The notes below the pieces were generated by a model. It made no database searches and was not told the origin of the DNA. It was given only the letters and a program-made list of their open reading frames with translations. Below are positions 24,691-63,703 of a stretch of 64,000 nucleotides of DNA, one piece after another; the first letter of the stretch is position 1, and every line of letters begins with the position of its first letter. Location: assembly GCA_011033025.1 (NCBI GenBank), contig WFMF01000071.1:62001-126000 (forward strand), read 5' to 3'. A program made the translations under genes and the position numbers. The DNA is from Beroe forskalii. Lineage: Eukaryota > Ctenophora > Nuda > Beroida > Beroidae.

Positions 24691-25110
24691 GGCGGTCTTT
24701 TAAATGCAAATTCTGCTGAATCTACCTCTCAGCTGTAAAATGTTCGTGATATTGGCATGTCTGTGTAACCCATGCAACTCTATGTAGGCGGTGGCTGTAA
24801 GTAGCTCGAAGAGCAGTTCGCGAGGCAAGCAGTCTGACGAAGACCACCTCCACCAACGAACCATGATAACGCCCACTGTTTTCTTGACTTACAAAGGTAT
24901 ACCGAGGCTAGCCCGTGGTACGGCACACCTCTTCCGTGGCAACTCACGCGTGTGAATGTAATCCGTAACGCTGGACTTGTCACGTGATGGCAACACGAAG
25001 GCGTCACGTGACGTGTCACGCGTTGCGATGGCAACAACAAGGTGTCACGTGCCGTACCACGTGATCTCTCCATCTTATATATTCATCACATTCACGCACC
25101 ATCTTTTTAG

Positions 25111-27206: not shown

Positions 27207-28067
27207 GTAAGTTATATAGTGCTGAGCGCCCTTGCATGGGGGAAGCTGAACTAATAATATGTCACGAATTCGAGCCTAAGATTCTATACCGTTTGGCCTA
27301 GGGCAAAACTGTAGTTGTTGAAACCCCAGAAATTTGATCAGGTAGGTTTTGCAGTCTTTGTGTGTTTAGATGAATCTGCAAATTGTGGAACGCAGACACC
27401 ACTATGATTGGTCTGAATAATTAGATTTAATGGCTCGAATGTTGACTTCTGGGACATACTCTCAATAAAAAACCTCCGTTAATTTACAGGCCTAGTTTGT
27501 TTGCTTTGAATTAATAAAGGACGAATCAAACTTGAGACTTTTAGATAAACCTTGGATCACCACAAAAGACTCCCGCAATTTACATTGATACCGAATCCTC
27601 CAGCGCTTGCTTTCAAAGTCGGCGGGAGTCTTTTATGGGCGGTCTTTTAAATGCAAATTCTGCTGAATCTACCTCTCAGCTGTAAAATGTTCGTGATATT
27701 GGCATGTCTGTGTAACCCATGCAACTCTATGTAGGCGGTGGCTGTAAGTAGCTCGAAGAGCGGTTCGCGAGGCAAGCAGTCTGACGAAGACCACCTCCAC
27801 CAACGAACCATGATAACGCCCACTGTTTTCTTGACTTACAAAGGTACCCATACCGAGGGCTAGCCCGTGGTACGGCACACCTCCTTCCGTGGCAACTCAC
27901 GCGTGTGAATGTAATCGTAACGCTGGACTTGTCACGTGATGGCAACACGAAGGCGTCACGTGACGTGTCACGCGTTGCGATGGCGACAAGAAGGTGTCAC
28001 GTGCCGTACCACGTGATCTGCCCTCATCTTATATATTTCATCACATTCACACGCACCATCTTTTTAG

Positions 28068-39852: not shown

Positions 39853-42800
39853 AATCCCGTGCTTTTTTCGTGTTAATGGACAGTTAGGAGTGGTTCTAGG
39901 TATTTTAGGCTATGCTGAATCGATCTAGCTATGCCGACATTTTTTATTTTGATGACGACACCGAGTTTTGGCCACGCCCATTTTTGCCCCGTATGCGCAA
40001 GCCATAGGATCGAAAAATTTTCATTTTGCACTTCAAATGGTGTATAATAGATCGAAATAGGGTTTTTCGACACGAGAAACACGATGCAATCCTCAGATTT
40101 GGCTCAAAATGTTCACAGAACGGTCTAGAGGTGACCACACCCCTTTTTAGACCCACGCGTGAGCCCAAAATGACAAAATTCCCATTTCCTGATACCCATG
40201 GCATGTGATATGTCAAAATAGGGGTTTTTCGACACGAGAAACACGATGCAATCCTCAGAATTGACCAAAGAGGTTCATAGAATGATTAACAGGTGACCAC
40301 ACCCCTTTTTAGGCCCATGTGAGTTCCAAAAATTACTCGAAAATTCCATTTCCTGACACCCATAGCATGCGATTTGTCGAAATAGTGCTTTTCTGGCACG
40401 AGAAACACAATGCAATGCTCAGATTTGACCAAAAAGGTTCACAGAACGATTTAGAAATGACTACACCCCCTTTCTTAGGCCCATGTGAGACACCAGAATG
40501 CCAAGATTACATTTACTGATACCCATGACAGGAGAAACACGATTCTCTATTTAGCTTCAGCCTAAAATGCTCCCATCAATCATTCAGAATGAAAGATCCA
40601 GTTTAAAGCAAAATATCGACATTATTGTGAATCTACTACTGGACCCAGGCGGCACCCAGGAGAGGGAGTTTCAGGCCGAGAGGCGGAGACGAGCGCTCCC
40701 ATGCTCTTGGGCCCCCGGATGGGACTAGAGTCCCGTTCCTCCCCAGTTGCCACCCTGCCAGAGCAGGATGACGTTGTCAGCTGAGCAGCGGGGTCAGGCT
40801 CCTTCCCTGGTGACCGGAGCGAGGGCTACCTCCGCGACATCCTCTAGGGACAGCTAAACTGTTATCCTGATACCCAAGACACTTGTCCCGAGGGATAGAG
40901 AGAGTCATCGCCAGTTCTCTTAGACACAAGGCGACCAGCCTAGTTAACGTCTAGCTAACGACCCTGTTAAGTTTGAACCTGTCCACGATGTCGGTGTTTG
41001 CACAGTACTATTCACAAATTTTGGATTTGGATTTGGATTCAAAATTTGCACATAACTCCCTGTATTTTGCGGTCCAATTGTTGTCCCGCAGCTTTTCATA
41101 CCTCTTACGAGACTCCTTCCTTCAGGTATCAAGTTCCGAATCCCGAGGTATTTTCCGTTGCCTTCTCCTTATCTTTGCCCTCAAGTCCCTCCTGGCTTTC
41201 TTCACCTCAGGCGCATCCCACGGAAGTGGTTTAATCTTCGCTGACACATATGTCAGTTCAGTCGCCGAGTTGAAGGCACCATGAATAGACGACGAGAGCT
41301 CAGATGCCGATGTGTCCATTTTTTCGACAGAGTCAATATTCCTGAACACCTCTACTACAGATCATGATGAAACATATTGTTATGCCATCAATAATGTTCT
41401 GTTACATAGTTTCAAATGTTCTGAGGGATGACAGAGCATTCAAAATTTGGTCGTTGTCACTAGAATCTTAGAATGCTTCAAAAAGTCTTGAATGGTCCCT
41501 GTTTTTCAACTATACCTATGTAGCTTCCTGAATCAAAATGATCACATCATCTAGAAAGAGGATGCAATTTCGAGGCAACACAGAAATTGTGTGTCAGCTT
41601 AAAGTGATCGTGGCCACTGAAAACCCATTTTGGTAAGTATGTGCTAATAATTGTAAGTCCATAAGCTACAACATATGGAATTGACAAGAATTCATTACAA
41701 AAATAACTACAAAATACATAAGATAAATATCATTGCCCCATGTTTTATCATTGTCACATCTTTTATCATTAGAGTTTACTTTAGCAAAAAAAGGAATATG
41801 ATTATAGCTTCAGTAGCCTCTTTGATATTGGGCTGCTAAGATGGTTATTATATTCAAAGCACCAAGTTGGTGGAGAGTTGCCACCAACACCAGTCCCCAC
41901 ATACATTTAAGTTAAATATTTCAGGTGCAGCTTAATTGCTCTGGTTTAAAAACGAAAAATCAGATTTCTTCCAGAATGCTCAATGGAGTTGGCGATATGC
42001 ATTTGTAAACTTGTACAAAGAAACTGAGTGCTCTCAAGGTGCATATGTGCCATACATAACTTCCAGTGTTCTGAAGTATGTGGTAGGTGGTGGCCATGAC
42101 TGACGACTGCACTGTGAGGATAAGGATGGAGGAAACTTGTTTTGAAACTGTTGATTGTGTGAATATAAAAGGGAAAACTTCTTCATTTGAAAGTGATTCA
42201 CAACTGGATCATTCATTTCAAAAAATTCAGTATCAGTCTCATTCAAGACAGAAGCATTAGAGATCCTTTTACCGACTGTGTTTTGTTTTTTCATGTGTAT
42301 CCTTAATCAAAATCATGATAAATAAAATCAAAATCATGATAAATAAAATCATGAATAAATAAATAATCATGAAATAATAAATATCCAGGATATCAATTTT
42401 TGTTGATTTTTCGCATGCAACATGGGGCTACATTCGACAAAATGGATTTGGCGTTCTGAGCGATTAATGGCAGCATTTCAGGCTTGAATTAAAAGATTAA
42501 ATATAGAGTTATGTTTCTCGTTACATAGAACCACTATTCCTCATGCCATGGTTAGGTATCAGGAAATGTAACTTTTGTCATTCTAGGGTCTCGCGTGAGT
42601 CTTTAAAGGAATTAGGTCACTTATAAATCGTTCTGTGAACCTTTTTGGTCAAATCTGAGCATTGCATTGTGTTTCTCGTGCCAGAAAAGCACTATTTTGA
42701 CATATCACTGTATGCTATGGGTGTCAGAAAATGGAATTTTTGAGTAATTTTTGGAACTCACATGGGTCAACAAAAGGGGTGTGGTCACCTGTTAATCGTT

Positions 42801-43229
42801 CTATGAAGCTCTTTGGTCAATTCTGAGGATCGTATTGTGTTTCTCGTGTCGAAAAACCCCTATTTTGACATATCACATGCCATGGGTATCAGGAAATGGG
42901 AATTTTGTCATTTTGGGCTCACGCGTGGGTCTAAAAAAGGGTGTGGTCACCTCTAGACCGTTCTGTGAACATTTTGAGCCAAATCTGAGGATTGCATCGT
43001 GTTTCTCGTGTCGAAAAACCCCTATTTCGATCTATTATACACCATTTGAAGTGCAAAATAAAAAATTTTCGATCCTATGGCATGCGCATACAGGGTAAAA
43101 ATGGGCGTGGCCAAAACTCGGTGTCGTCATCAAAATAAAAAATGTCGGCATAGCTAAATCGATTCAGCATAGCCTAAAATACCTGGAACCACTCCAAACT
43201 GTCCATTAACACGAAAAAAGCACGGGATT
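39853..43229. mobile_element. Foldback-like element with long inverted arms
   Basis: The left arm (39853-about 40591) is repeated inverted at about 42455-43229, starting at the same terminal sequence AATCCCGTGCTTTTTTCGTG. Each arm is itself made of about four ~180-bp tandem units with TTTTTCGACACGAGAAACAC and GGTGACCACACCCC. The middle (40592-42454) shows no transposase; it contains a LINE remnant. Long arms made of tandem repeats recall foldback (FB/TU-type) elements. No clear target duplication was seen. It lies inside the C2F-C2G ferlin intron. Confidence 0.8.
41000..41349 (-). pseudogene. LINE remnant, endonuclease-RT linker
   Basis: On the minus strand, two overlapping frames read IKPLPWDAPEVKKARRDLRA and later ESRKRYEKLRDNNWTAKYRE. 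The pattern PW-W-like/D-x-x-V-x-x-A-R followed by basic RRxR and KYREL is usual between the endonuclease and reverse transcriptase of non-LTR elements. A frame change separates the two parts. Confidence 0.5.
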
Positions 43230-50474: not shown

Positions 50475-50927
50475 ACGCCTAGTTTTACTGTTGTCTATAT
50501 TCTATAGATCCCAAATAAATTGTGTTGTAGGTAGGATATTATAATCCAGGACATTTTAGTACATAAACGGGCCGGGATTTATCATAGGTTTGAATGGGAA
50601 TACTTTCACCGTGTTTGTGAGTACAAGGGCGTGATAAGCCTTATCTTTTCTTAATAATAATATTGTTATTCATCTTACCCTGTCACTAGTAAATACATGA
50701 TAGATTGTACGAAGTAATATGCGTGACAGCCTATTTGTGAGAATAAGATAAATGTTGTTATCTTGTTTGATAAGGAGTTAAAAATAAGATGATGCTTGTT
50801 AACGTGTCGTATAAAAGCGGCTTGTTAGTTTAGTCGAGAGCTTAGGCTGTTGGTTTAGTTACAGAAGGAAATGCTGTCGTAGTAATTCTACACCAGTGAT
50901 ATTCTGCGGGAAGTTGGTCAAGGTAAT
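50475..50927 (+). mobile_element. LTR copy A of the outer element
   Basis: 453 bases that recur, as far as I can see without change, at 51828-52280. It contains a TATAAAAGCGG segment near its 3' part, fitting an LTR promoter on the plus strand. Between the two copies lie only 900 bases with no gag-pol. Confidence 0.8.
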
Positions 50928-51827: not shown

Positions 51828-52280
51828 ACGCCTAGTTTTACTGTTGTCTATATTCTATAGATCCCAAATAAATTGTGTTGTAGGTAGGATATTATAATCC
51901 AGGACATTTTAGTACATAAACGGGCCGGGATTTATCATAGGTTTGAATGGGAATACTTTCACCGTGTTTGTGAGTACAAGGGCGTGATAAGCCTTATCTT
52001 TTCTTAATAATAATATTGTTATTCATCTTACCCTGTCACTAGTAAATACATGATAGATTGTACGAAGTAATATGCGTGACAGCCTATTTGTGAGAATAAG
52101 ATAAATGTTGTTATCTTGTTTGATAAGGAGTTAAAAATAAGATGATGCTTGTTAACGTGTCGTATAAAAGCGGCTTGTTAGTTTAGTCGAGAGCTTAGGC
52201 TGTTGGTTTAGTTACAGAAGGAAATGCTGTCGTAGTAATTCTACACCAGTGATATTCTGCGGGAAGTTGGTCAAGGTAAT
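51828..52280 (+). mobile_element. LTR copy B, 5' LTR of the outer element
   Basis: Identical in length to copy A. It is followed by an 820-base leader and the gag start at 53103, so it is the 5' LTR of a plus-strand LTR retrotransposon that runs past the window end. Confidence 0.8.
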
Positions 52281-53261: not shown

Positions 53262-53627
53262 TATTGTAGTTTGGTCTCGCGGTCCGAGTAGAGTAAGACA
53301 GTAAGACAACGTTCTATAGTAACTCTGATATAGTGAAGAAGAACTCCCGAATGTACAAAAACGGACCTTATATACTCGAGCACCGTTACCGCCTCTCACG
53401 GTAACGCGTGTGACGTACCTCAATAGATAAACATGACGTCACTAAACAAGCAACACGCTAACCTGCTCCGACCCTCGGGCAGTAGAAACAATAACACGGA
53501 ACTTCTAACTTCTAACTTGACAAACTAACCCAATTAGCTACGTAGGAAGAGGAGCTAATTAACCCGGCTATCTGCGTATACATACTATACACTATACAAG
53601 CTAAACGTGTAATACCAAGGTACAACA
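53262..53627 (-). repeat. 3' LTR of the inner element
   Basis: Matches 62201-62570 through most of its length, with scattered substitutions and small indels. In element sense it begins TGTTGTACCTTGG. Confidence 0.92.
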
Positions 53628-54306: not shown

Positions 54307-54536
54307 GCATTCCAGTGAGGAATGCCGTACGTCATATTAGGAGAAGTCGTCACAGTGAGTGACGTCACAGTGAGTGATTTAGGAATTCTGGAGTAAGGAC
54401 CGTCGCAGTGAGCGACCAGGTAGAGGACTGTCACAGTGAGTGACCTAGGAGTAATGAAAATCGCAGTGAGCGATTTATGAGGAAGGAATGCCGCATTGAG
54501 CGACTAGACTAGGAGGGGTCCGTCACAGTGAGTGAC
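54307..54536 (-). ncRNA. 3' cluster of eight AGTGA-loop hairpins
   Basis: Eight short inverted repeats (starting 54307, 54349, 54364, 54402, 54430, 54458, 54490, 54522) of the form stem-AGTGA-stem, such as GCATTCC.AGTGA.GGAATGC, GTCAC.AGTGA.GTGAC and AAATCGC.AGTGA.GCGATTT; one has ATTGA. Stems differ but remain paired. In the element's RNA the loop reads UCACU. The same loop is used in the leader array at 61241-62160. Function unknown. Confidence 0.8.
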
Positions 54537-54670
54537 CGGGGGAATCCAATGACGTCCCGATTGGTTGAAGGGGTCTTTAGTTACCTGAACGAGCATGATC
54601 ATTGCATGACAGGAAATTGGAGAGGAGTAGCCTGTTAGGTTAATGATGGGTCATTGAGATGAGTCTCCAG

Positions 54671-54677: not shown

Positions 54678-54765
54678 CAGCAGCCATTCCGTGGATGTCA
54701 GCTCTGGCTTCTACCGACGAGTATCCCGTTCCTCTACTCATCAACTCCTGAAACTACAACCCGCT

Positions 54766-55284
54766 ATGGCTTCATCCCCTGTTCCTGATGACTGCAGCGA
54801 CGTTACCTTCCCGCCCTTCTCTAAGGAGCTGCTGCACAGTAAACTATTGCAGATATGGAGCGTTGAACCCTCTAGCGCTCGGCTGAGGAAGTTGAACAGA
54901 TCGCATCTCCAGTACGCCTCCAGGTCGCTGTGGGTAACCTCTGAAGGACGCAAAGTCAGGGAGCTGGTGGTTAAATACCGAGCAACCTTTCTGAAGAAGC
55001 TCGTCGAGGCGGCGACGCAGGACGACGTTGATGTTGCCTGCATCGAATTCTCTGCGAACCTCCATCAGTGGGTTGAGGAGATGAAGCTCTTTGCCAAACG
55101 CCACTGCAAGGGAGCCCGGGAGAAGAAAGCTACCCTTTTGGAAATCAAGCATCGAGCTGACGGGTTCACCTACAACTCCGCTCTTCTCGAGTTCGCCGTG
55201 AAACCTTGCCGGAAGACACTCCGAAAGCTACGTCATAGCTTGATGGAGCTATGGGTGCTTCGCCACATCGAGGCTGACATCTGA
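54766..55284 (+). CDS. Antisense ORF within the inner retrotransposon
   Basis: 172 codons starting MASSPVPDDCSDVTFPPFSK and ending VLRHIEADI. The open frame actually reaches 54691, but 54766 is the first ATG. The product is predominantly helical and basic, with LRKLNRSHLQYASRSLW, VVKYRATFLKKLVEAA and CRKTLRKLRHSLMELW. I recognise no family. It is on the strand opposite gag-pol, between pol and the 3' LTR, tail-to-tail with pol and about 140 bases from its end. It has its own TATA box. Antisense ORFs at this place are known in some plant Ty3/gypsy lineages; I know of no relation to those. Confidence 0.55.
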   Translation: MASSPVPDDCSDVTFPPFSKELLHSKLLQIWSVEPSSARLRKLNRSHLQYASRSLWVTSEGRKVRELVVKYRATFLKKLVEAATQDDVDVACIEFSANLHQWVEEMKLFAKRHCKGAREKKATLLEIKHRADGFTYNSALLEFAVKPCRKTLRKLRHSLMELWVLRHIEADI

Positions 55285-55424: not shown

Positions 55425-58400
55425 TTAACAATAGAAGTATTGTTTCTGCCTTGGGTCGACCTGGAACCGGACAGTGGTTTTCCGTTTCCGCTTGGGGCGG
55501 TTAACAACGTTAGGGTCTGGACTGGGGTTTTGTGGGTGGGTGGTGGTTTGTGAGGGGCTCTGTGCATCATGCTGGGTCTCATCCTCTGGATCCAATTCCG
55601 GAGGATTCCCACTGTTCTGATCGGCGACGTCGTGGTCATCTCCTTGGGTTTCAGGGTCAGGGGTAGGGGTACGAGTGTCAGACCCTTCATCAGCACCATC
55701 ACGTCCACCCATTCTAATACTCAGTCCTGTACTACCCTGTGAGCTAGTCGTATTCTCCTTGCTACCCACACCGTCTTTGGCAGGGGTAAACTCAGCTGCC
55801 TGGGGGTTGAGGCTGGGAGAGAATTTGTTAGAGTTGTACCTCTTTAACTTAGAGATATTTACCAGTTTCTCGGTATTTCCGATCTGCACCACATAGACGT
55901 GTTCGTCTATGGCTTTGACTATCCTCACCGGCCCATGCCAGCGGGGGCTGAACTTATGGGTGGGACATCGGATTTGTACATAGACAAGATCCCCAGTTGA
56001 GAACGGTGCATTCCTTATGCCCTTGTTGAAAGAGATGTCCGAGTAGGCAAAGTAGCTGTTGAGATTCTTTCTCACCTTGTGAATCACCTCTCTGTAGGCT
56101 TTGTGTAGTTCATAAGCCTTCTGATCATATTGGACGTCAGAGTAGGATCCAAACACATCTTCCTTGTCACCATTCTCCAACAGTAAGCTCATTGGGGTAT
56201 TGAGCTCGTGGCCATATACGAGGTAGTTAGCACTATACCCAGTTGCCCGGCTTTTCATGCTGTTGAGCGCGGCACACACATAATCTAGGTACCTATCCCA
56301 AGTCTTGGGATCTTTTCCCTCAAGGCATACTCTCAGACTCGTGTTGAGGCGCTTATTGGTACGTTCGGCCTTGGAAGTACTTCTACATTCGTACGGCAAG
56401 CCATGAGATATCTTGCATCCTAGGGACTTGAACACGGAGTTATAGAACTTAGATGCAAAGCCCGGGGCGTTGTCAGATATTATATTCCTAGGGACACCAA
56501 ATCGTAGTACCCAGTGATGCATAATTAGGCGTATGTTCTCCTCAGATGTCTGATGTTTGGTGGCAACAGCAACGACGAAGCCTGAGAACACGTCCGTCAT
56601 TGAGAGGAAGTACTTGTTTTTTCCTGCTGTGATCCCCAGCTTCTCAGCCTCGTCGTGGTCAATCTGGAGGATTTGGTTAAACTCGTGAGCTATGATGTGT
56701 TTCCTGGTTGCCTTGGAGTAACTTTGGGGTTGCTTTGACCTCCCACAAGTGACACAGGCGTTAACGTATAGGGTTACATCCTCAGACATTCCTGGCCAAT
56801 AGAAATATCGGCGGCAGATTTCCAGTGTTAGTTGCGTGCCTGGGTGATTGGCCATCAGTGAGGAGTGGCACATTTGTAGGACTGCTTCCTGTTTCTGTTC
56901 TGGAACGCACACGAGGATCCTCGTTCCCTCCTGGGTACCCTTGTTGATGGGGATCCACTGCCTGCAGATGACTCCGTCCTTCAGCTTCAGAAGACTGAAC
57001 TGCTTGTAGTAAGACACCAGTTCCTTTGGAGCTCGATAAGCCTGGATAGTACTAGGCTTTTCGCCCTTTAACAGCCACTCTCTAACCACGCTCAAAATGG
57101 GATCAGCAGCTTGATCTGCCCTGGCCGTGGCAGGCGACAAATCTGGAGTGAAGTCTGGTATCTGTTCCGAAGTGCTAGATGGCTGCTGAGTGGTGGTTGA
57201 GCTATCCTGTTGCGGCAAATCCACTGTGTCTGTAGTGATGAGATTACAGGTACAACCATCATCTTCTGGTGCTTTAGGAGCCATTGTCACTTTACTGCCT
57301 CTCAGGACTCTGCTTTTCCGAGAGAAGAAGCTAGGGGGAAACATTCTTTCCTCACCAGCTGTGTCGTCGTCGTCAGGAGTAGTGCTGGATTCCTCCGAAC
57401 AGTGGTGGAGCACCGAGTTGACCTCATCCGTAGACGTCTGCTGGATCTCAGGTGCCGCCTGGGGAACCGCAGGTGTGTCCGGAGTGATGTTCCCCTTATC
57501 CTCTCCGCACTTCTCTGTGACCGTCTGCTTGGTAGCCCTGTGGCTGCAACCCTTCCTCTGATTTTGGGTGTCGCAGATCTGAGATACCTTCTCGATTAAC
57601 TTTGCAAAATCACAGCTATCCGCCGTGATAGCGGCAGTCATGGGGTTACCAAGGACACTCCTGTCCTCTCCACACTGAACTGCCACATCTTTGAACTTCT
57701 TCTTGGCCGGTAAACGGGACAAGTAGTCGGCAATGGAGTTCTTCTCTCCTGAGATGTGTTCTATGTCGAAGGAGAATTCCGAAAGTTTCTGCACGAGATT
57801 CCTCATATCAGGGTTGTTCCTAGAGAAGATGGTCTCCATCCTGAGGAGGCTAAGGCAGTCCGTCTTAGCCTTGAAATGGGTTCCCTTCAGGTAAGGTTCC
57901 CAGAACTTCGTGGCATGAACTAGGGTAAGCAATTCAAGCTTAGTCTGACCCCATTCACGCTTATGAGGCGGTACAGCCTTGGAGAAATAGCCGACAATCC
58001 GTCGTTCTCCCTTGATCCTCTGAGATAGGTGGGCTCCCATCCCGAACTTACTCCCGTCAACCACTAGCTCGTAGGACCTCTCCTTGTCGTACAGGTCAGG
58101 TACACACAAGGTCACGCTGCTTTTCACGGCTTCCTTAAGTTTCTGTAAGTTCTCATCGCAGGTTTGGGTCCACTTGAAAGGTGTCCCCTTCTTCAGCAGC
58201 TGGAACATGCAGTGGGTGAGTCCAGCGTAGTGGGGGATCCACTTACGATTAAATCCGAAGAAGCCTAGCAAACTCTGGAGTTGCTTCCTGTTAGTAGGGG
58301 CTTTTAGCTCAGTGAGAGCCTTAACCCTGTCATCAGTTATCCTCAAGCCTTCCCCAGACAGTGTTATTCCCACAAACTTAACCTCCTTCCTCAGGAAGTT

Positions 58401-60017
58401 AGACTTTGATGGTGAGAGCTTCATTCCAGCCGCCAACAGTCTCTGGAAAACAATTTCCAGTCGCTGCAAGTGCTGTTCTACCGTATCTGATGCCAGTAGC
58501 AGGTCGTCCAGGAAGTATACGAGCTGTGAGAACGGTAGGTTGTACATGATCTTTGACATGCAGCGACTGAATTGAGCCCCGCTCGTCTTGTGACCCATTA
58601 TAAGCCGTTTGAACCAATAACGGCTGCCATTTGCCGTTGTGAAGGCCGTAAGGGGGCGCGAGGCCTTGTTATATTTGATTTGATGGAATGATTGGCTGCA
58701 GTCAAACGTGCTGTACCAGCTATGCCCACCAACTTTGTCTACCACGTGGCCGATGAGAGGCATTTGGTAATTGTCGGGTAGACATTGGGCATTCAGAGCA
58801 CGCATATCCACGACAAATCTCATTTTATCCGGCTGATTGGGCTTCTTAACAAGGAAGATTGGTGAGTTGAACAGAGATTTCTCTGTGCAGGGTTCAATAA
58901 CGTCGGCTTCTTCAAGTCCCCTGATCTGTTCCTCCATCTTATCTCGTAGCAAATAGGGAATGGGTCGTGCTGGAACCCACGTGTGTTTGAAATCAGGCTT
59001 CAAGTTGATTTCCCCTTCGTACATGTTACACTCTCCGAGGTCAAAGGGGCTGGACGAGAAACAGTCTCTGAACCGCCACACCAGGTCTTTGAGCTGATCC
59101 CGCTCTGTGTTGGAGATACCCTTGATACTAGAGAGCTTCAGTTCATCCCACAACCTTTGCTGTGTCCAGGGTCTCTTGGTAGGCTTTGAGGTTTCGTGCT
59201 GGATAGCGCTCACGTGGTGGGGAGTGGAATCAGTGACCTTAACTCCCCTGAATCCGGTGTCACAGCTGCTATCCACTGGGTAAAAGGTACCTAGGATCTT
59301 GTTCTTGTAAACCGTGATTGGGTTATCAGTCAGGTTGGAGATCCTGACTGGCACGGATTTCCTGTCGGTGAGACACATGGCACTGTCTAGGAGTAGACCC
59401 TTATCCAGCAACAAGTTGACCTTGGGTTCTATGAACCCACTGTAGGAGCCGTCGGTGTCGTCCAAATCAGGTACTTTAGCACTGATAAACATCACCGTGT
59501 TAGCCGGGATTGTGTGAGGCTTAGCAGTCCGGATGACACACGTCTTCCTTAGCTGATGTATACTTCTTAAACAAGGAGCTTTACCCGTTGATGACGTAAT
59601 ACACCCGTTAACTACATCAATGTTGAATTGATGCTTTCTCAAGAAGTCGAGACCAATCAAACAGTGGGTGTCGACCAGGTCGGTGACAATCATCCTGTGT
59701 TTGACGTGGGCTCCCGCGAGCTCGATGTCCAGTGTAACCTCGCCGTGTGTCCTGATCTCATTACTGGTGAATGAGGATAATGTAAGCTTGGTAGGCTGAA
59801 GTGAGAGACCTAATGCCGTCACCAGAGACTTACTGACGAGCGAAACGGAGCTCCCGGTGTCGATAAAGAAAGTGGCATGAGTGCCATTGCAGGTGCCACG
59901 AACGATCAGCTGTTTCTCTGGGTCAGATGACAACTTGTTAATCTGCTGCAGATCCGAGGGTTGCGAGGTTGCAGCGTCATCCGTGCAACCCTCTAGAAGT
60001 TTAAATCCACCGTGCAA
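55425..60017 (-). CDS. pol: Inner element Pol polyprotein
   Basis: About 1530 codons in the -1 frame relative to gag. In order: aspartic protease with FIDTGS (residues about 51-56) and a second hydrophobic CLIGLDFL; reverse transcriptase with MRFVVDMRALN and the catalytic YFLDD near residue 510; RNase H with VVDGS, KLELL, TDCLSLL and NSIADYLSR; a long low-complexity acidic spacer; integrase with the HHCC zinc site (NHPGTQ, CVTCG) and D,D-35-E core (LSMTDVFSG, IISDNAPGF, SKAERTNK); a GPY/F-like module (RWHGPVRIVKAI); a disordered proline-rich tail. It makes the replication and integration enzymes of the element. All catalytic residues I can check are present. Confidence 0.93.
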   Translation of the reverse strand: MHGGFKLLEGCTDDAATSQPSDLQQINKLSSDPEKQLIVRGTCNGTHATFFIDTGSSVSLVSKSLVTALGLSLQPTKLTLSSFTSNEIRTHGEVTLDIELAGAHVKHRMIVTDLVDTHCLIGLDFLRKHQFNIDVVNGCITSSTGKAPCLRSIHQLRKTCVIRTAKPHTIPANTVMFISAKVPDLDDTDGSYSGFIEPKVNLLLDKGLLLDSAMCLTDRKSVPVRISNLTDNPITVYKNKILGTFYPVDSSCDTGFRGVKVTDSTPHHVSAIQHETSKPTKRPWTQQRLWDELKLSSIKGISNTERDQLKDLVWRFRDCFSSSPFDLGECNMYEGEINLKPDFKHTWVPARPIPYLLRDKMEEQIRGLEEADVIEPCTEKSLFNSPIFLVKKPNQPDKMRFVVDMRALNAQCLPDNYQMPLIGHVVDKVGGHSWYSTFDCSQSFHQIKYNKASRPLTAFTTANGSRYWFKRLIMGHKTSGAQFSRCMSKIMYNLPFSQLVYFLDDLLLASDTVEQHLQRLEIVFQRLLAAGMKLSPSKSNFLRKEVKFVGITLSGEGLRITDDRVKALTELKAPTNRKQLQSLLGFFGFNRKWIPHYAGLTHCMFQLLKKGTPFKWTQTCDENLQKLKEAVKSSVTLCVPDLYDKERSYELVVDGSKFGMGAHLSQRIKGERRIVGYFSKAVPPHKREWGQTKLELLTLVHATKFWEPYLKGTHFKAKTDCLSLLRMETIFSRNNPDMRNLVQKLSEFSFDIEHISGEKNSIADYLSRLPAKKKFKDVAVQCGEDRSVLGNPMTAAITADSCDFAKLIEKVSQICDTQNQRKGCSHRATKQTVTEKCGEDKGNITPDTPAVPQAAPEIQQTSTDEVNSVLHHCSEESSTTPDDDDTAGEERMFPPSFFSRKSRVLRGSKVTMAPKAPEDDGCTCNLITTDTVDLPQQDSSTTTQQPSSTSEQIPDFTPDLSPATARADQAADPILSVVREWLLKGEKPSTIQAYRAPKELVSYYKQFSLLKLKDGVICRQWIPINKGTQEGTRILVCVPEQKQEAVLQMCHSSLMANHPGTQLTLEICRRYFYWPGMSEDVTLYVNACVTCGRSKQPQSYSKATRKHIIAHEFNQILQIDHDEAEKLGITAGKNKYFLSMTDVFSGFVVAVATKHQTSEENIRLIMHHWVLRFGVPRNIISDNAPGFASKFYNSVFKSLGCKISHGLPYECRSTSKAERTNKRLNTSLRVCLEGKDPKTWDRYLDYVCAALNSMKSRATGYSANYLVYGHELNTPMSLLLENGDKEDVFGSYSDVQYDQKAYELHKAYREVIHKVRKNLNSYFAYSDISFNKGIRNAPFSTGDLVYVQIRCPTHKFSPRWHGPVRIVKAIDEHVYVVQIGNTEKLVNISKLKRYNSNKFSPSLNPQAAEFTPAKDGVGSKENTTSSQGSTGLSIRMGGRDGADEGSDTRTPTPDPETQGDDHDVADQNSGNPPELDPEDETQHDAQSPSQTTTHPQNPSPDPNVVNRPKRKRKTTVRFQVDPRQKQYFYC
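59945..60005 (-). promoter_or_regulatory. -1 ribosomal frameshift signal, gag-pol
   Basis: In element sense a slippery heptamer T TTA AAC (59999-60005) lies in the gag frame just before the gag stop. After a 5-base spacer comes GAGGGTTGC (59993-59985), perfectly complementary to GCAACCCTC (59964-59956), loop 20 bases. GCTGCA in the loop (59975-59970) can pair with TGCAGC downstream (59950-59945), giving an H-type pseudoknot. The frame after slippage (FKLLEGCTDDA) is pol. Confidence 0.88.
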
Positions 60018-61195
60018 TGCCTTGCCTTATGATTCAACTCATTGCATTTGTAGCACCTCATCTCCTTCCTGGTATGTCTATTATTCCGGTGCTGATTCGG
60101 CTGCGGCTCCTCGTGTTCTCCCCTCGCAGGCCTGTTAGGAGAGTCCTCACTCTGATTTCGGGGTTGCTGATCTCTAGAAGAACCGGGAGAGCTATAGTTT
60201 TGCCTTCGATTTCCTCCCCTGAAGTGGTTCCTGCGACCCCGGTTGTTGCCATTATACCCAGTGTTCTGACTCTGTCTATATCCCTGCTGTTTATCAGCAC
60301 CATCCGTGGAGTGTACAGCAAGCACGTCATGGTCGTCCTCAGTTGACTCCTGCGACGACGTCAATCCCAGTGAGTTTCTGATAACTTCAAGGCGGCCAGC
60401 TTCCTCTACTGCTTTTTCAAACGTATCTATCGACACATCTTCGAGGATCTTCATCTTCAGGGTAGGGTCCTTCAGTCCCTTCCTGAACGTGGACAAGCAG
60501 GCATCCTCACGAAGAAGGTCCTGTGATTCTGAGAAGGCTCTCGATGCAGTCTCCGAGATACGAAATGCGAAGTCCTCCACACTCTCTCCGCTTGGTTTCT
60601 GCTTCAATTCCGCAAGCATAGTTCTGAATGTCCCGCCCTCATGGGGTGGACACATTTTCTTCATGTATTCCTTCAGGAACGATGTCGCATCCTCTCTCTG
60701 GCCGGGAGTGAGCGATACTTTCTTCAATTTCTCTCTGGTGAAGTCGTCCACCAACTGTAAGAAGATCAGGGGTAGGTTGTCCCCTTCAATGTTCCCTAGC
60801 GTGACATACTCAAGGAACTTGTCACAAAACTTCGAAAAGTTTTCCCCTCTTTTGAACTTCTCCAGTTGGGGTAGTTTGAAGCTAAGGCTCGACTTGGAAC
60901 CCTTGGTTCTCTTCTCTGTGCTGGATACCGCCACTGGTTGTGTAGTTTTACTACCAGCGTCAACATCAGAACCTCCAACGAGGTGGGTACGAGCCACTGC
61001 ACGGCATGCATCTTCAGTCTTCTTCAATTCCATCCAATCAGTAGTACATTTGTCAAACTCTTCTCTGGCGGCTTCCTTGTCCTCGGTGGCATCATCATCC
61101 AATTTCTGTTGGGCAGCCACAAGCTTCTCGTGGGCGTCCTGGGACAACTGAATGGCTTCCAGTAGCTTAGACAAGTTCTGGAACTCTGCCGCCAT
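59993..61195 (-). CDS. gag: Inner element Gag
   Basis: 400 codons from ATG at 61195 to TAG at 59993. The N-terminal 90 residues are charged and likely coiled coil (LLEAIQLSQDAHEKLVAAQQ). A central capsid-like region follows (FSKFCDKFLEYVTLGNIEGD, VEDFAFRISETASRAF). There is a basic Arg/Asn-rich stretch, then a single zinc knuckle CYKCNELNHKARHC (CX2CX4HX4C). It forms the particle and binds RNA. Its last codons overlap pol at the frameshift site. Confidence 0.92.
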   Translation of the reverse strand: MAAEFQNLSKLLEAIQLSQDAHEKLVAAQQKLDDDATEDKEAAREEFDKCTTDWMELKKTEDACRAVARTHLVGGSDVDAGSKTTQPVAVSSTEKRTKGSKSSLSFKLPQLEKFKRGENFSKFCDKFLEYVTLGNIEGDNLPLIFLQLVDDFTREKLKKVSLTPGQREDATSFLKEYMKKMCPPHEGGTFRTMLAELKQKPSGESVEDFAFRISETASRAFSESQDLLREDACLSTFRKGLKDPTLKMKILEDVSIDTFEKAVEEAGRLEVIRNSLGLTSSQESTEDDHDVLAVHSTDGADKQQGYRQSQNTGYNGNNRGRRNHFRGGNRRQNYSSPGSSRDQQPRNQSEDSPNRPARGEHEEPQPNQHRNNRHTRKEMRCYKCNELNHKARHCTVDLNF

Positions 61196-61240
61196 CCTAG
61201 TAGCTGCTCTGAAAGTGATTCGGTAGGAGCAGTAAGACGT

Positions 61241-62160
61241 GTAGAACTGACAGTGAGTTTGTTCTACGGCAGGACACTCTCGAACTAACAGTGAGTTTGT
61301 TCGAGACGAAGAACTCCGGTAACTAACAGGGAGCTAGCTTACCCGGCAGACGTGTCTATACCAACAGTGAGTTGATGCTAGACAAGGGAGGTTCTAGAGC
61401 GAACAGTGAGTTCGTTCTAGAAGGCAGAAGTGTCTTGAACCAACAGTGAGTTAATTCGCGACGAGAGGGAGAAGTATCTCGAACTAACAGTGAGTTAATT
61501 CGCGACGAGAGGGAGAAGTATCTCGAATTAACAGTGAGTTAATTCGCGACGAGAGGGAGAAGTATCTCGAATTAACAGTGAGTTAATTCGCGACGAGAGG
61601 GAGAAGTATCTCGAACTAACAGTGAGTTAATTCCGAGATAAGAAGGGACGCAGACGGGTTTTAGACCGAACAGTGAGTCCGTTCTAAAAGCAGAAAAGTC
61701 TCCTACTAACAGTGAGTTCGTTTGAGACAAGAAGGTGCCTGTAGAACAAACAGTGAGTTCGCTCTGCAAGCAGGGGTATCTGAAACTGACAGTGAGTCGG
61801 TTCCAGACGAAGGTTAGCAGAACTAACAGTGAGTTAGATCCACCAAAGAATGTAGGGCAACCAGTGAGTTCACTCTACGAGAAAAGGGTCTAGAGCTAAC
61901 AGTGAGTTTGCTCTGGACTGGAGGACGTAGAACTAACAGTGAGTTGGTTCTACGAAGCAGAGAAATCTAGTACAAACAGTGAGTTTATCCTAGAAAGAAG
62001 AACAATGTAGACTTAACAGTGAGTTAAAACTACAAGACAGAAAGATCTAGAACAAATAGTGAGTTTGTCCTAGGAGCAAGAAGATTGTAAAACTAACAGT
62101 GAGTTAGCTCTACGGAGCAGAACAAGAAAAGTGTAGACTAACAGTGAGTTAGGCTACAAG
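61241..62160 (-). ncRNA. Leader array of 23 AGTGA-loop hairpins
   Basis: Almost the whole 1-kb leader between 5' LTR and gag is an array of about 23 inverted repeats roughly 40 bases apart. Each has the plus-strand core AAC-AGTGA-GTT with arms of 8-13 bp. Examples: TCTAGAGCGAAC/GTTCGTTCTAGA, CGTAGAACTAAC/GTTGGTTCTACG, CGAATTAAC/GTTAATTCG. Arms vary from unit to unit, but opposite changes keep pairing (with some G-U). The loop is constant except one AGGGA. In element RNA each loop is UCACU. Three or four middle units (61480-61630) are near-identical recent duplicates. Confidence 0.88.
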
Positions 62161-62181: not shown

Positions 62182-62199
62182 CGAAAACCGGGCCACCAG
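62182..62199 (-). other. Primer-binding site of the inner element
   Basis: Next to the 5' LTR the plus strand reads TTCGAAAACCGGGCCACCA, which looks like a tRNA 3' end (T-loop, acceptor strand, CCA). In element sense it is the complementary TGGTGGCCCGG, two bases from the LTR. I cannot name the tRNA. Confidence 0.7.
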
Positions 62200-62200
62200 T

Positions 62201-62570
62201 TATTGTCGTTCGGTCTCGCGGTCCGAGTAGAGTAAGACAGTAAGACAACGTTCTATAGTAACTCTGATATAGTGAAGAAGAACCCCCGAATATACAAATA
62301 CCAACTTTATATACTGGAGCACCGTTACTGCCTCCCATGGTAACGCGTGTGACGTTCCTCAATAGATAAACATGACGTCACTCAAACAAGCTACACACTA
62401 ACCTTCTCCGACCCTCGGGCAGTAGAAACAATAACACGGAACTTTTAAGGTACTTACCCGATAAACTAACCCAATTAGCTACATAGGAAGAGGAGCTAAT
62501 TTAAGCCTGGCTATCCGCGTATACATACTATACACTATACAAGCTAAACGTGTAATACCAAGGTACAACA
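62201..62570 (-). repeat. 5' LTR of the inner element
   Basis: 370 bases, matching 53262-53627. In element sense it starts TGTTGTACC and ends ACGACAATA, next to the primer-binding site. Confidence 0.92.
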
Positions 62571-63703
62571 TTGTGCTGCAGAGGCAAATAGGGGATCTGG
62601 AGGTTTTGGAGGCCAAATTAAGAGCCCAGATAGTGGTGGCTCCTCAGCCTAATTTTGAGGACACATTTCGGGCTCCTCACCCGACGCACGCCGCTAGTGT
62701 TCCTAAGCCTGAAAAACCTCCTAAATTTGAATCAGGCAATAATTTTACACGGTTTGCCAAACGGTTTAAGGAACATGTTTTGCTATGTAACCTACAGGGC
62801 ACTAGGTTAGATTTATACATGCTCTCCTTCGTTAAATGTGAGCAAACATGGGAGAAATTACAGGGTCTTTTTCTAAGGGATAACGAGAGGTTTGATATTG
62901 ACCTCCTCATCAAGCGTTACACTGATGAGTTGTTCCCTCCTCTCGAAGCTACGGCTACTAGGGCCGAATTGCTGTCTGTTAAACAGAAAACTGGTGAAAC
63001 TGTGGGACAGTTTTGTTTTCGGATCAGTGATTTGGCCAGCAGGGCGGGATACGACACCAGTCAAAGCATGGAGGACAGTTGCCTGAATGCTTTGATTTCA
63101 GGTGCTACAGAGCCCCGTGTTAGGGAACGTATTCTCGAGAACAATATTCGAGACTACAAAGAGGCGGTAAAAATTGCTACGCAAACAGAGCGTATTAAAG
63201 CGATTGATAGTACTAGTACCCCCAATAATCGTGAGGCTGATCATTCCCTCTACTCTTTAAGTGGTAATAGGCAGGACGAGTCGAACGAAAATTATATTAG
63301 TCAGGGTATAGAGGCACCTTATAATTCTAATATCGGTGAAATTAATGCGATTCAGAATTTTAGTGGAGGACCATATTTTGATAGGGTAAATTCAGCTGGC
63401 TATTCTAGACTTGAAAACTCTTATCAGAATATTCCTCAGCAAATTGGCCCTGCTAATGATAGGTGGGAAAATTATGGACATGATTTTCATAGTAATCATG
63501 AACCTGAAATGTGGGGTAATGACAGACGTCATAATTATGAAAATTACGGCCGGAATAATCGGTATAGAGTAAGTTGCTGGGAATGTGGGGGCAATCATTT
63601 CAAAAGGAATTGCCCTCAAATCAGTCAGTTAAGGGAGAATTTCGATGACGATAGCACTTATCATAGGCTTCCTTTAAACGGACAATGGATGGCAGGTCAG
63701 TAA
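62571..63703 (+). pseudogene. gag: Outer element gag, 3' part
   Basis: Continues the frame broken at 53261 (LQRQIGDLEVLEAKL) and is open for about 376 codons to TAA at 63701. It has a capsid-like core (FTRFAKRFKEHVLLCNLQG, VGQFCFRISDLASRAGYD), an Asn/Tyr-rich region, and a zinc knuckle CWECGGNHFKRNC with spacing CX2CX3HX4C, one residue shorter than usual. Related in plan to the inner Gag but clearly different in sequence. Disrupted only by the nested insertion. Confidence 0.85.

Follow-up and report, generated by a model that had tools for sequence, protein, structure and literature searches.

Layout of the element and its leader

The window analyzed here is a 64,000-nucleotide stretch of a Beroe forskalii contig, and it raises the question of why the leader of a retrotransposon lying within it is filled with hairpins that share one loop, and what might read them. 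This inner element is encoded on the minus strand. Its 5′ LTR (62201–62570; 370 bp), with a TATATAA box in sense orientation read from the sequence near 62313, is 91.6% identical to its 3′ LTR (53262–53627) and is adjoined by a primer binding site (PBS), TGGTGGCCCGG, at 62188–62198. Pfam matches in the 1,530-aa pol (55425–60017) follow the order protease, RT, RNase H, and integrase, which, with the flanking LTRs and the PBS, assigns the element to Ty3/gypsy (Metaviridae). The 400-aa gag (59993–61195) encodes one putative CCHC knuckle after an R/N/G-rich stretch; the zf-CCHC match falls under the curated Pfam threshold (E 0.0022, 18.4 bits against 20.8), and residues C381, C384, H389, and C394 are nearly invariant in an alignment of 14 Gags.

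From the PBS to the gag ATG the leader measures ~1,000 nt, and the main array fills 61240–62159 with 23 hairpins whose stems reach up to 12 bp and whose median spacing is 40 nt. A degenerate 24th hairpin (61204–61232), with an outer stem of 6 bp and an internal loop, lies a few bases before the gag ATG. Seven further hairpins with the same loop, on stems of 4 to 7 bp, form a second cluster (54310–54545) between pol and the 3′ LTR. An outer gypsy element appears to have been interrupted in its gag region by the inner one; the gag-like frame of the outer element resumes at 62573 on the plus strand with 33% identity to the inner Gag over 304 columns. An antisense ORF of 197 aa (54691–55284, plus strand) was also observed between pol and the 3′ LTR, its 5′ side facing the 3′ hairpin cluster.

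Pairing and covariation in the leader array

With small departures allowed, the core AAC-AGTGA-GTT occurs in 23 units on the plus strand, with loops starting from 61252 to 62143. This matches the original prediction of about 23 hairpins with a constant five-base loop, the degenerate hairpin coming in addition, and the three stems cited there as examples were located at 61926–61954, 61278–61306, and 61659–61689. Because the element is on the minus strand, the core in leader RNA reads AAC-UCACU-GUU and the loop is UCACU, again as proposed. A scan of the window for at least four hairpins with a common loop and a net stem score of at least 6 flagged the leader array alone, though at this score it misses the 3′ UCACU cluster, where stems are shorter.

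To measure pairing, right arms were reassigned among units in 5,000 deals and Watson-Crick pairs were counted. At positions 4–12 from the loop, 147 of 207 cells were paired with a unit's own arm, against 106.5 ± 5.8 expected, and no deal scored as high; the variable stems with retained pairing described earlier are thereby borne out. Near-identical units are explained by a tandem expansion of one 44-bp array unit at 61422–61633 (96% matches), and with the three near-copies removed (20 units) the count was 124 of 180 against 91.2 ± 5.2, again with 0 of 5,000 as high. Pairing ends at position 12, since positions 13–16 are at chance level (14 of 92 against 14.4 expected). Across 22 distinct units, 84.8% of cells were paired, compared with 71.3% when shuffled and at most 39.8% when slid, and two-sided changes were present at 10 of 12 pairs; shuffling gave 6.4, and 3 of 500 shuffles scored as high. 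The covariation score was 0.426, against 0.202 ± 0.022 shuffled (0 of 500 as high) and at most 0.129 when slid. Compensatory changes, which had been put forward as the check on this structure, are therefore in excess of shuffles both in arm dealing and in the covariation score. Units share a conserved loop and three conserved closing pairs; their outer arms vary and covary.

A simple satellite is ruled out by these 22 distinct 29-nt units with compensatory changes, the 44-bp expansion excepted. None of the Rfam covariance models matched the leader at E ≤ 0.5, the sole weak match lying in pol, and a search for DNA relatives of the leader array returned only the array itself, as did the same search with the leader of one relative (C157).

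Arrays in related elements of the same genome

All comparisons between arrays come from one genome, in which 93 Gag matches were found. For the best 30 of these, 1.5 kb of upstream sequence was inspected, and longer stretches were read for 20 regions plus three more. Arrays were called by script and by eye, with loops picked from the very sequences being classified. The closest sister, C458, is 88–100% identical to the window element over RT stretches, 72% over the first 400 aa of pol, and ~60% in Gag. Its leader has the same architecture, with UUACU for UCACU in 18 units between PBS and gag, and almost no leader similarity; this array contains 32-nt tandem units. The array predicted to recur in sister elements is thus present as an architecture, with other loops, and in the closest sister almost without nucleotide similarity.

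Between PBS and gag we also observed arrays in C446 (loop UCAUU, 10 units), C547 (UCAACGG, 5 units), C691a (UCAACGG, 6 units), C157 (CUG-N7-CAG, 15 units), and C160 (19 hairpins, L037:250–1045). The C160 hairpins have a 4-bp CACU/AGUG stem with a single unpaired base below it (G in 16 of 19) and a GYCUN loop in 13 of 19; the last one abuts the gag AUG, an arrangement that recalls phage coat-protein operators. In other relatives the array falls within the LTR, ahead of the PBS: C691b and two C481 copies have 9 to 12 units with the loop UUAACUA, a third C481 copy (L031) has five TTAACTA sites in an interrupted layout that we counted as an array, and C289 has 12 units with the loop UCUU. In C691b, C481a, and C289 the first loop follows a TATA-like box at a distance of 63 to 68 nt; no such box was seen at the corresponding place of the second C481 copy. 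In C360, the open frame spanning the gag match (799 aa) contains 15 GACCU loops, and in C157b, 13 GACCU loops, partly in 51-nt repeats, lie within a 400-aa open frame in a phase other than that of the gag match. The GACCU hairpins in open frames (L063:700–1450 and L033:478–1560) keep a single phase within each. The position of the array therefore differs among lineages (leader, LTR upstream of the PBS, or open frame).

Arm dealing was applied to ten relative arrays, leaving out the two GACCU arrays and L031. Of 5,000 deals, the number scoring as high was 12 for C458, 1 for C446, 0 for C691b, 0 for C481a, 17 for C481b, 2 for C289, and 0 for C160, and it was 8 for the inner pairs of C157. The weakest results were those of C547 (91), C691a (86), and the outer stems of C157 (232).

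Some repeats were not counted as arrays. Those upstream of gag in C299 (L057:2091–2830) are a palindromic satellite of 19–23 nt with a GTTACAGC core, and "TCTG" repeats in C469 (L017) and tandem repeats in C436 (L030) were also set aside. Most relatives with an array have TGGTGGCCTCG or TGGTGGCCCGG as their PBS. Outside this genome, scans of viral contigs with pol and with the Gag alignment yielded no relatives, and a Gag search returned 13 homologues without genomic context.

The distribution of arrays was then compared with a Gag tree of 28 rows, drawn from the best 30 of the 93 matches after dropping L013, another piece of C458, and L027, regarded as another piece of C691a; the C691a and C157b arrays lie outside these rows. 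Arrays are present in 12 of the 28 rows, counting the interrupted L031, and cluster on the tree, which requires 3 changes compared with 9.3 under shuffling, none of 500 shuffles being as low. The 16 rows with no array form one clade of 12 in the midpoint-rooted drawing, plus L011, L017, L023, and L026. Inspection of the upstream stretches of these four revealed no array; what lies upstream of L026 in the window is not its own leader but the window array in antisense, which was left uncounted. No array was observed in L061 or L062 either. The 5′ ends of the four array-less rows outside the clade, and of L061 and L062, may have decayed.

Hairpins in coding sequence and 3′ of pol

Perfect 5-bp hairpins in coding sequence were counted against dinucleotide shuffles, and the median ratio was 3.22 in the 12-row no-array clade versus 1.53 in array elements (one-sided Mann-Whitney p 0.0015, with phylogeny ignored). 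Ten of the 12 rows in the clade (L015, L018, L020–L022, L028, L030, L032, L035, and L038) displayed this excess; the exceptions were L034, with neither array nor excess, and L019, whose total of 12 against 8.5 was no excess. The contrast is not strict, as array elements L025, L029, and L031 also have a coding excess, with ratios of 2.2–2.4. In the coding parts of L018, L022, L030, L032, and L038 the excess comes without a fixed loop.

Synonymous codons were also shuffled (40 shuffles, open frames of at least 150 aa). No shuffle was as high as the observed count in L015, L018, L020, L022, L030, L032, and L038, which have no array, or in array elements L009, L025, L029, L031, and L033, and there was no clear excess in L019, L021, L028, or L034. 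Observed and shuffled counts were 6 and 2.1 for the pol piece of the window element, and 7 and 2.2 for L033.

In two lineages the coding hairpins share a loop. In L021 and L035, 8 of 19 AACAA sites have at least 5 paired bases on their flanks (base rate 0.0049), and in L015, L019, L020, and L028 the same holds for 6 of 19 ATAACA sites and 5 of 14 AAAACT sites. The stems differ, and all of these counts come from homologous copies that are not independent. On a fetched C227 pol piece, AACAA had at least 4 bp at 4 of 13 sites (binomial 6e-6, local rate) and 5 bp at 1 of 13. On the C636 piece, AAAC or TAAC had at least 5 bp at 5 of 45 sites (8e-6); for the longer motifs named beforehand, stems of at least 5 bp were found at 0 of 3 sites for ATAACA, 1 of 11 for AAAACT, and 0 of 5 for TAAAC. 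The antisense motif TTGTT on the fetched pol pieces gave 0 of 19 at 4 bp. A third fetched piece, C603 (L065), proved to be repeat DNA with no AACAA sites.

Of the 12 TCACT sites 3′ of pol in the window element, 7 have flanks that pair over at least 4 bp, compared with 1 of the 11 in gag-pol. All seven of these hairpins (~54310–54540) have the form C-UCACU-G on variable stems, on the same strand as the leader array. Downstream of pol in C458, one UUACU hairpin was present among 8 TTACT sites. No 3′ cluster was found in C446, C547, or C160, the C547 piece perhaps stopping short of the pol end, and these four elements do not support the cluster as a general feature of array elements.

Strand bias and selection at the RNA level

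Folding of a 925-nt stretch gave −300.6 kcal/mol in sense against −208.7 ± 5.4 in 20 shuffles (z −16.9), versus −294.8 against −242.0 ± 6.1 in antisense (20 shuffles; z −8.7). We also counted embedded mismatches, meaning those with Watson-Crick pairs on both flanks, in eight array sets, with C157 left out. On the sense strand G·U accounted for 38 of these and A·C for 11, with 47 of other kinds. The G·U share was 0.776, whereas dealing arms gave 0.632 ± 0.050 (3 of 2,000 deals as high), though the number of embedded G·U lies under the dealt-arm mean in three of the eight sets (UUAACUA, GACCU, and C160). This count was adopted after a G·U comparison over all cells had proved weakly asymmetric: across all stem cells of the eight arrays without C157, G·U numbered 47 against 78 expected and A·C 29 against 58. 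Because G·U is nearly as depleted as A·C relative to dealt arms in that comparison, the case for an RNA bias rests on the embedded mismatches and the contrast between sense and antisense folds.

In six leaders (window, C458, C446, C547, C691a, and C157) the gag start is the first AUG after the PBS, with none upstream in 1003, 645, 708, 277, 280, and 763 nt, respectively, and in the window no AUG occurs over 1,095 nt from near the expected cap site (62290) to the gag ATG. The reverse complement CAT is present 3 to 25 times in the five leaders counted to the start codon, in which array units are not independent. The C160 leader has one AUG in 949 nt. As the leader is without AUG, ribosomes probably scan through the array. 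Collectively, the embedded G·U bias, the stronger sense fold, and the AUG-free leaders support the earlier claim of a selected RNA structure rather than a satellite, and RNA-level selection on the array is well supported.

Pairing could also be kept without selection if tandem-repeat dynamics were combined with palindrome correction through template switching during reverse transcription. The local 44-bp expansion in the window and the 32-nt tandem units of C458 would agree with such dynamics, but a sense-strand G·U bias and a strand-specific absence of AUG are not predicted by them, nor are a constant loop over many distinct stems and loop-sharing hairpins in coding sequence, and we consider this account very improbable.

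A second account places the signal in the DNA, as an insulator or as sites for a transcription factor. In Drosophila gypsy a cluster of sites for Su(Hw) sits in the 5′ untranslated region. Twelve such sites make up that cluster, according to one paper (PMC6385973), and the present repeats are similarly clustered in a 5′ non-coding region. The gypsy sites are DNA-binding sites and would each be expected to keep a conserved DNA sequence, whereas here it is mainly outer-arm pairing that is conserved while the outer arms vary and covary; the signal is biased toward the RNA sense strand in embedded G·U and in folding; and relatives have hairpins inside open frames and scattered in coding sequence. 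We therefore reject the gypsy-type insulator as a class for this array and regard a DNA-level function more broadly as extremely improbable.

The array might instead modulate scanning or translation of gag, by slowing, by shunting, or by setting the balance between translation and packaging, with the loop sequence incidental. Six leaders free of upstream AUG and the last C160 hairpin abutting the gag AUG would agree with such a device. Against it, loop identity is constant through each array while stems vary, the GACCU hairpins of C360 lie within an open frame that includes gag, and UCACU hairpins occur again 3′ of pol, so that we judge a translational role improbable. Because array position is flexible, an RNA-binding signal fits better than either a promoter or a start-codon device.

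Candidate readers of the array

We propose that the array serves as a multivalent recognition signal in the element's genomic RNA, most likely read by the element's own Gag for packaging, a proposal in which we place roughly even confidence. The original reading had likewise suggested a multivalent site, for Gag or a host protein. Each hairpin would display a UCACU loop closed by C-G, with few constraints on stem sequence beyond pairing. The nucleocapsid part of Gag would most likely occupy neighboring loops at intervals of ~40 nt, and this binding would pick the element RNA over other RNAs and nucleate particle assembly on the array. Gag as the reader, packaging as the step served, and specificity between loop and Gag are our inferences. 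Gag is favored because loops differ among lineages and because hairpins lie in the gag frame and 3′ of pol.

A host RNA-binding protein acting in export, localization, stability, or translation, comparable to those of constitutive transport elements, could also bind the hairpins. A constant loop on variable stems is a signature of protein binding, and the array lies within a long AUG-free 5′ UTR. However, at least eight loops occur in co-resident lineages, where one shared protein would predict one loop; an element-encoded reader seems preferable to a single common host factor for this reason, and we consider the host protein unlikely. Dimerization through kissing loops was rejected for most loops, as UCACU, UUACU, UCAUU, UCUU, GACCU, and AACAA are not self-complementary; UUAACUA contains UUAA.

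Extending Gag recognition to the relatives, we tentatively suggest, with somewhat under even confidence, a loop code for a group of Ty3/gypsy elements, in which each lineage marks its genomic RNA with many copies of a hairpin loop peculiar to it, and the Gag of that lineage recognizes the loop. The mark would be laid out as a 5′ leader array, in the LTR-derived 5′ end, within the open frame containing gag, or scattered through gag-pol on differing stems. Gag and loop would co-diversify, so that the differing loops could prevent co-resident families from packaging each other's RNA.

Comparison with known systems

Full-text searches of one literature collection found no description of an LTR element with such a hairpin array. 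Retroviral packaging signals are often located between the PBS and gag, and the leader array similarly provides structured RNA in the 5′ region of the predicted genomic RNA. To our knowledge, retroviral psi and the packaging regions of Ty1 and Ty3 are not arrays of a repeated hairpin. They are likewise structured, lie near the 5′ end of the genomic RNA, and are thought to be recognized by Gag, and in Ty1 and Ty3 RNA the packaging sequences and Gag sites are not precisely defined, as stated in one review (PMC4974528).

The multiple dispersed packaging signals of single-stranded RNA viruses such as MS2 resemble the array: numerous stem-loops differ in their stems but have a loop motif in common. 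A review of these signals only suggests that assembly might proceed similarly for Gag-like proteins (PMC6281560). Many stem-loops with the same loop are what we observed here, including the coding AACAA and WAAC hairpins, and the unpaired base below the loop stem in C160 resembles the bulged A of the MS2 operator. Unlike in MS2, the protein here is a retro-type Gag with a putative CCHC knuckle, the hairpins are clustered in an array in the lineages studied, and contact with the coat protein is putative.

Sirevirus LTR elements also contain symmetric motifs in high copy; these are mostly CGG-CCG palindromes upstream of the TATA box and are possibly regulatory in the authors' reading (PMC2829016). 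The present arrays differ in covarying and in their position, which is between PBS and gag or, within the LTR of C691b, C481a, and C289, 63–68 nt past a TATA-like box. Assignment of the window array to the Sirevirus RM boxes was rejected, since it is outside the LTR, 3′ of it in sense, with a core of AAC-UCACU-GUU.

The window leader thus offers a candidate signal repeated ~20 times, with a loop legible by eye, and the natural variants with other loops in the same genome make loop-swap tests of Gag specificity simple. If Gag recognition is correct, multivalent assembly on packaging signals would extend from small RNA viruses to LTR retrotransposons, as relatives of retroviruses, and the lineages would hold natural multi-copy pairs of RNA tag and binding protein.

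Other repeats in the window

Further repeats were observed elsewhere in the window. Two tandem arrays with a period of ~165 bp (40052–40526 and 42555–43027) lie ~2 kb apart; the units of one appear to be reverse complements of those of the other, an arrangement resembling a foldback-type element. A repeat with a 41-bp period bearing CACGTG occurs twice, at 24974–25065 and 27926–28017, 2,952 bp apart, and the two copies are possibly the LTRs or terminal repeats of another element. Finally, upstream of the nested elements, there is a 453-bp direct repeat whose copies, at 50475–50927 and 51828–52280, are 100% identical.
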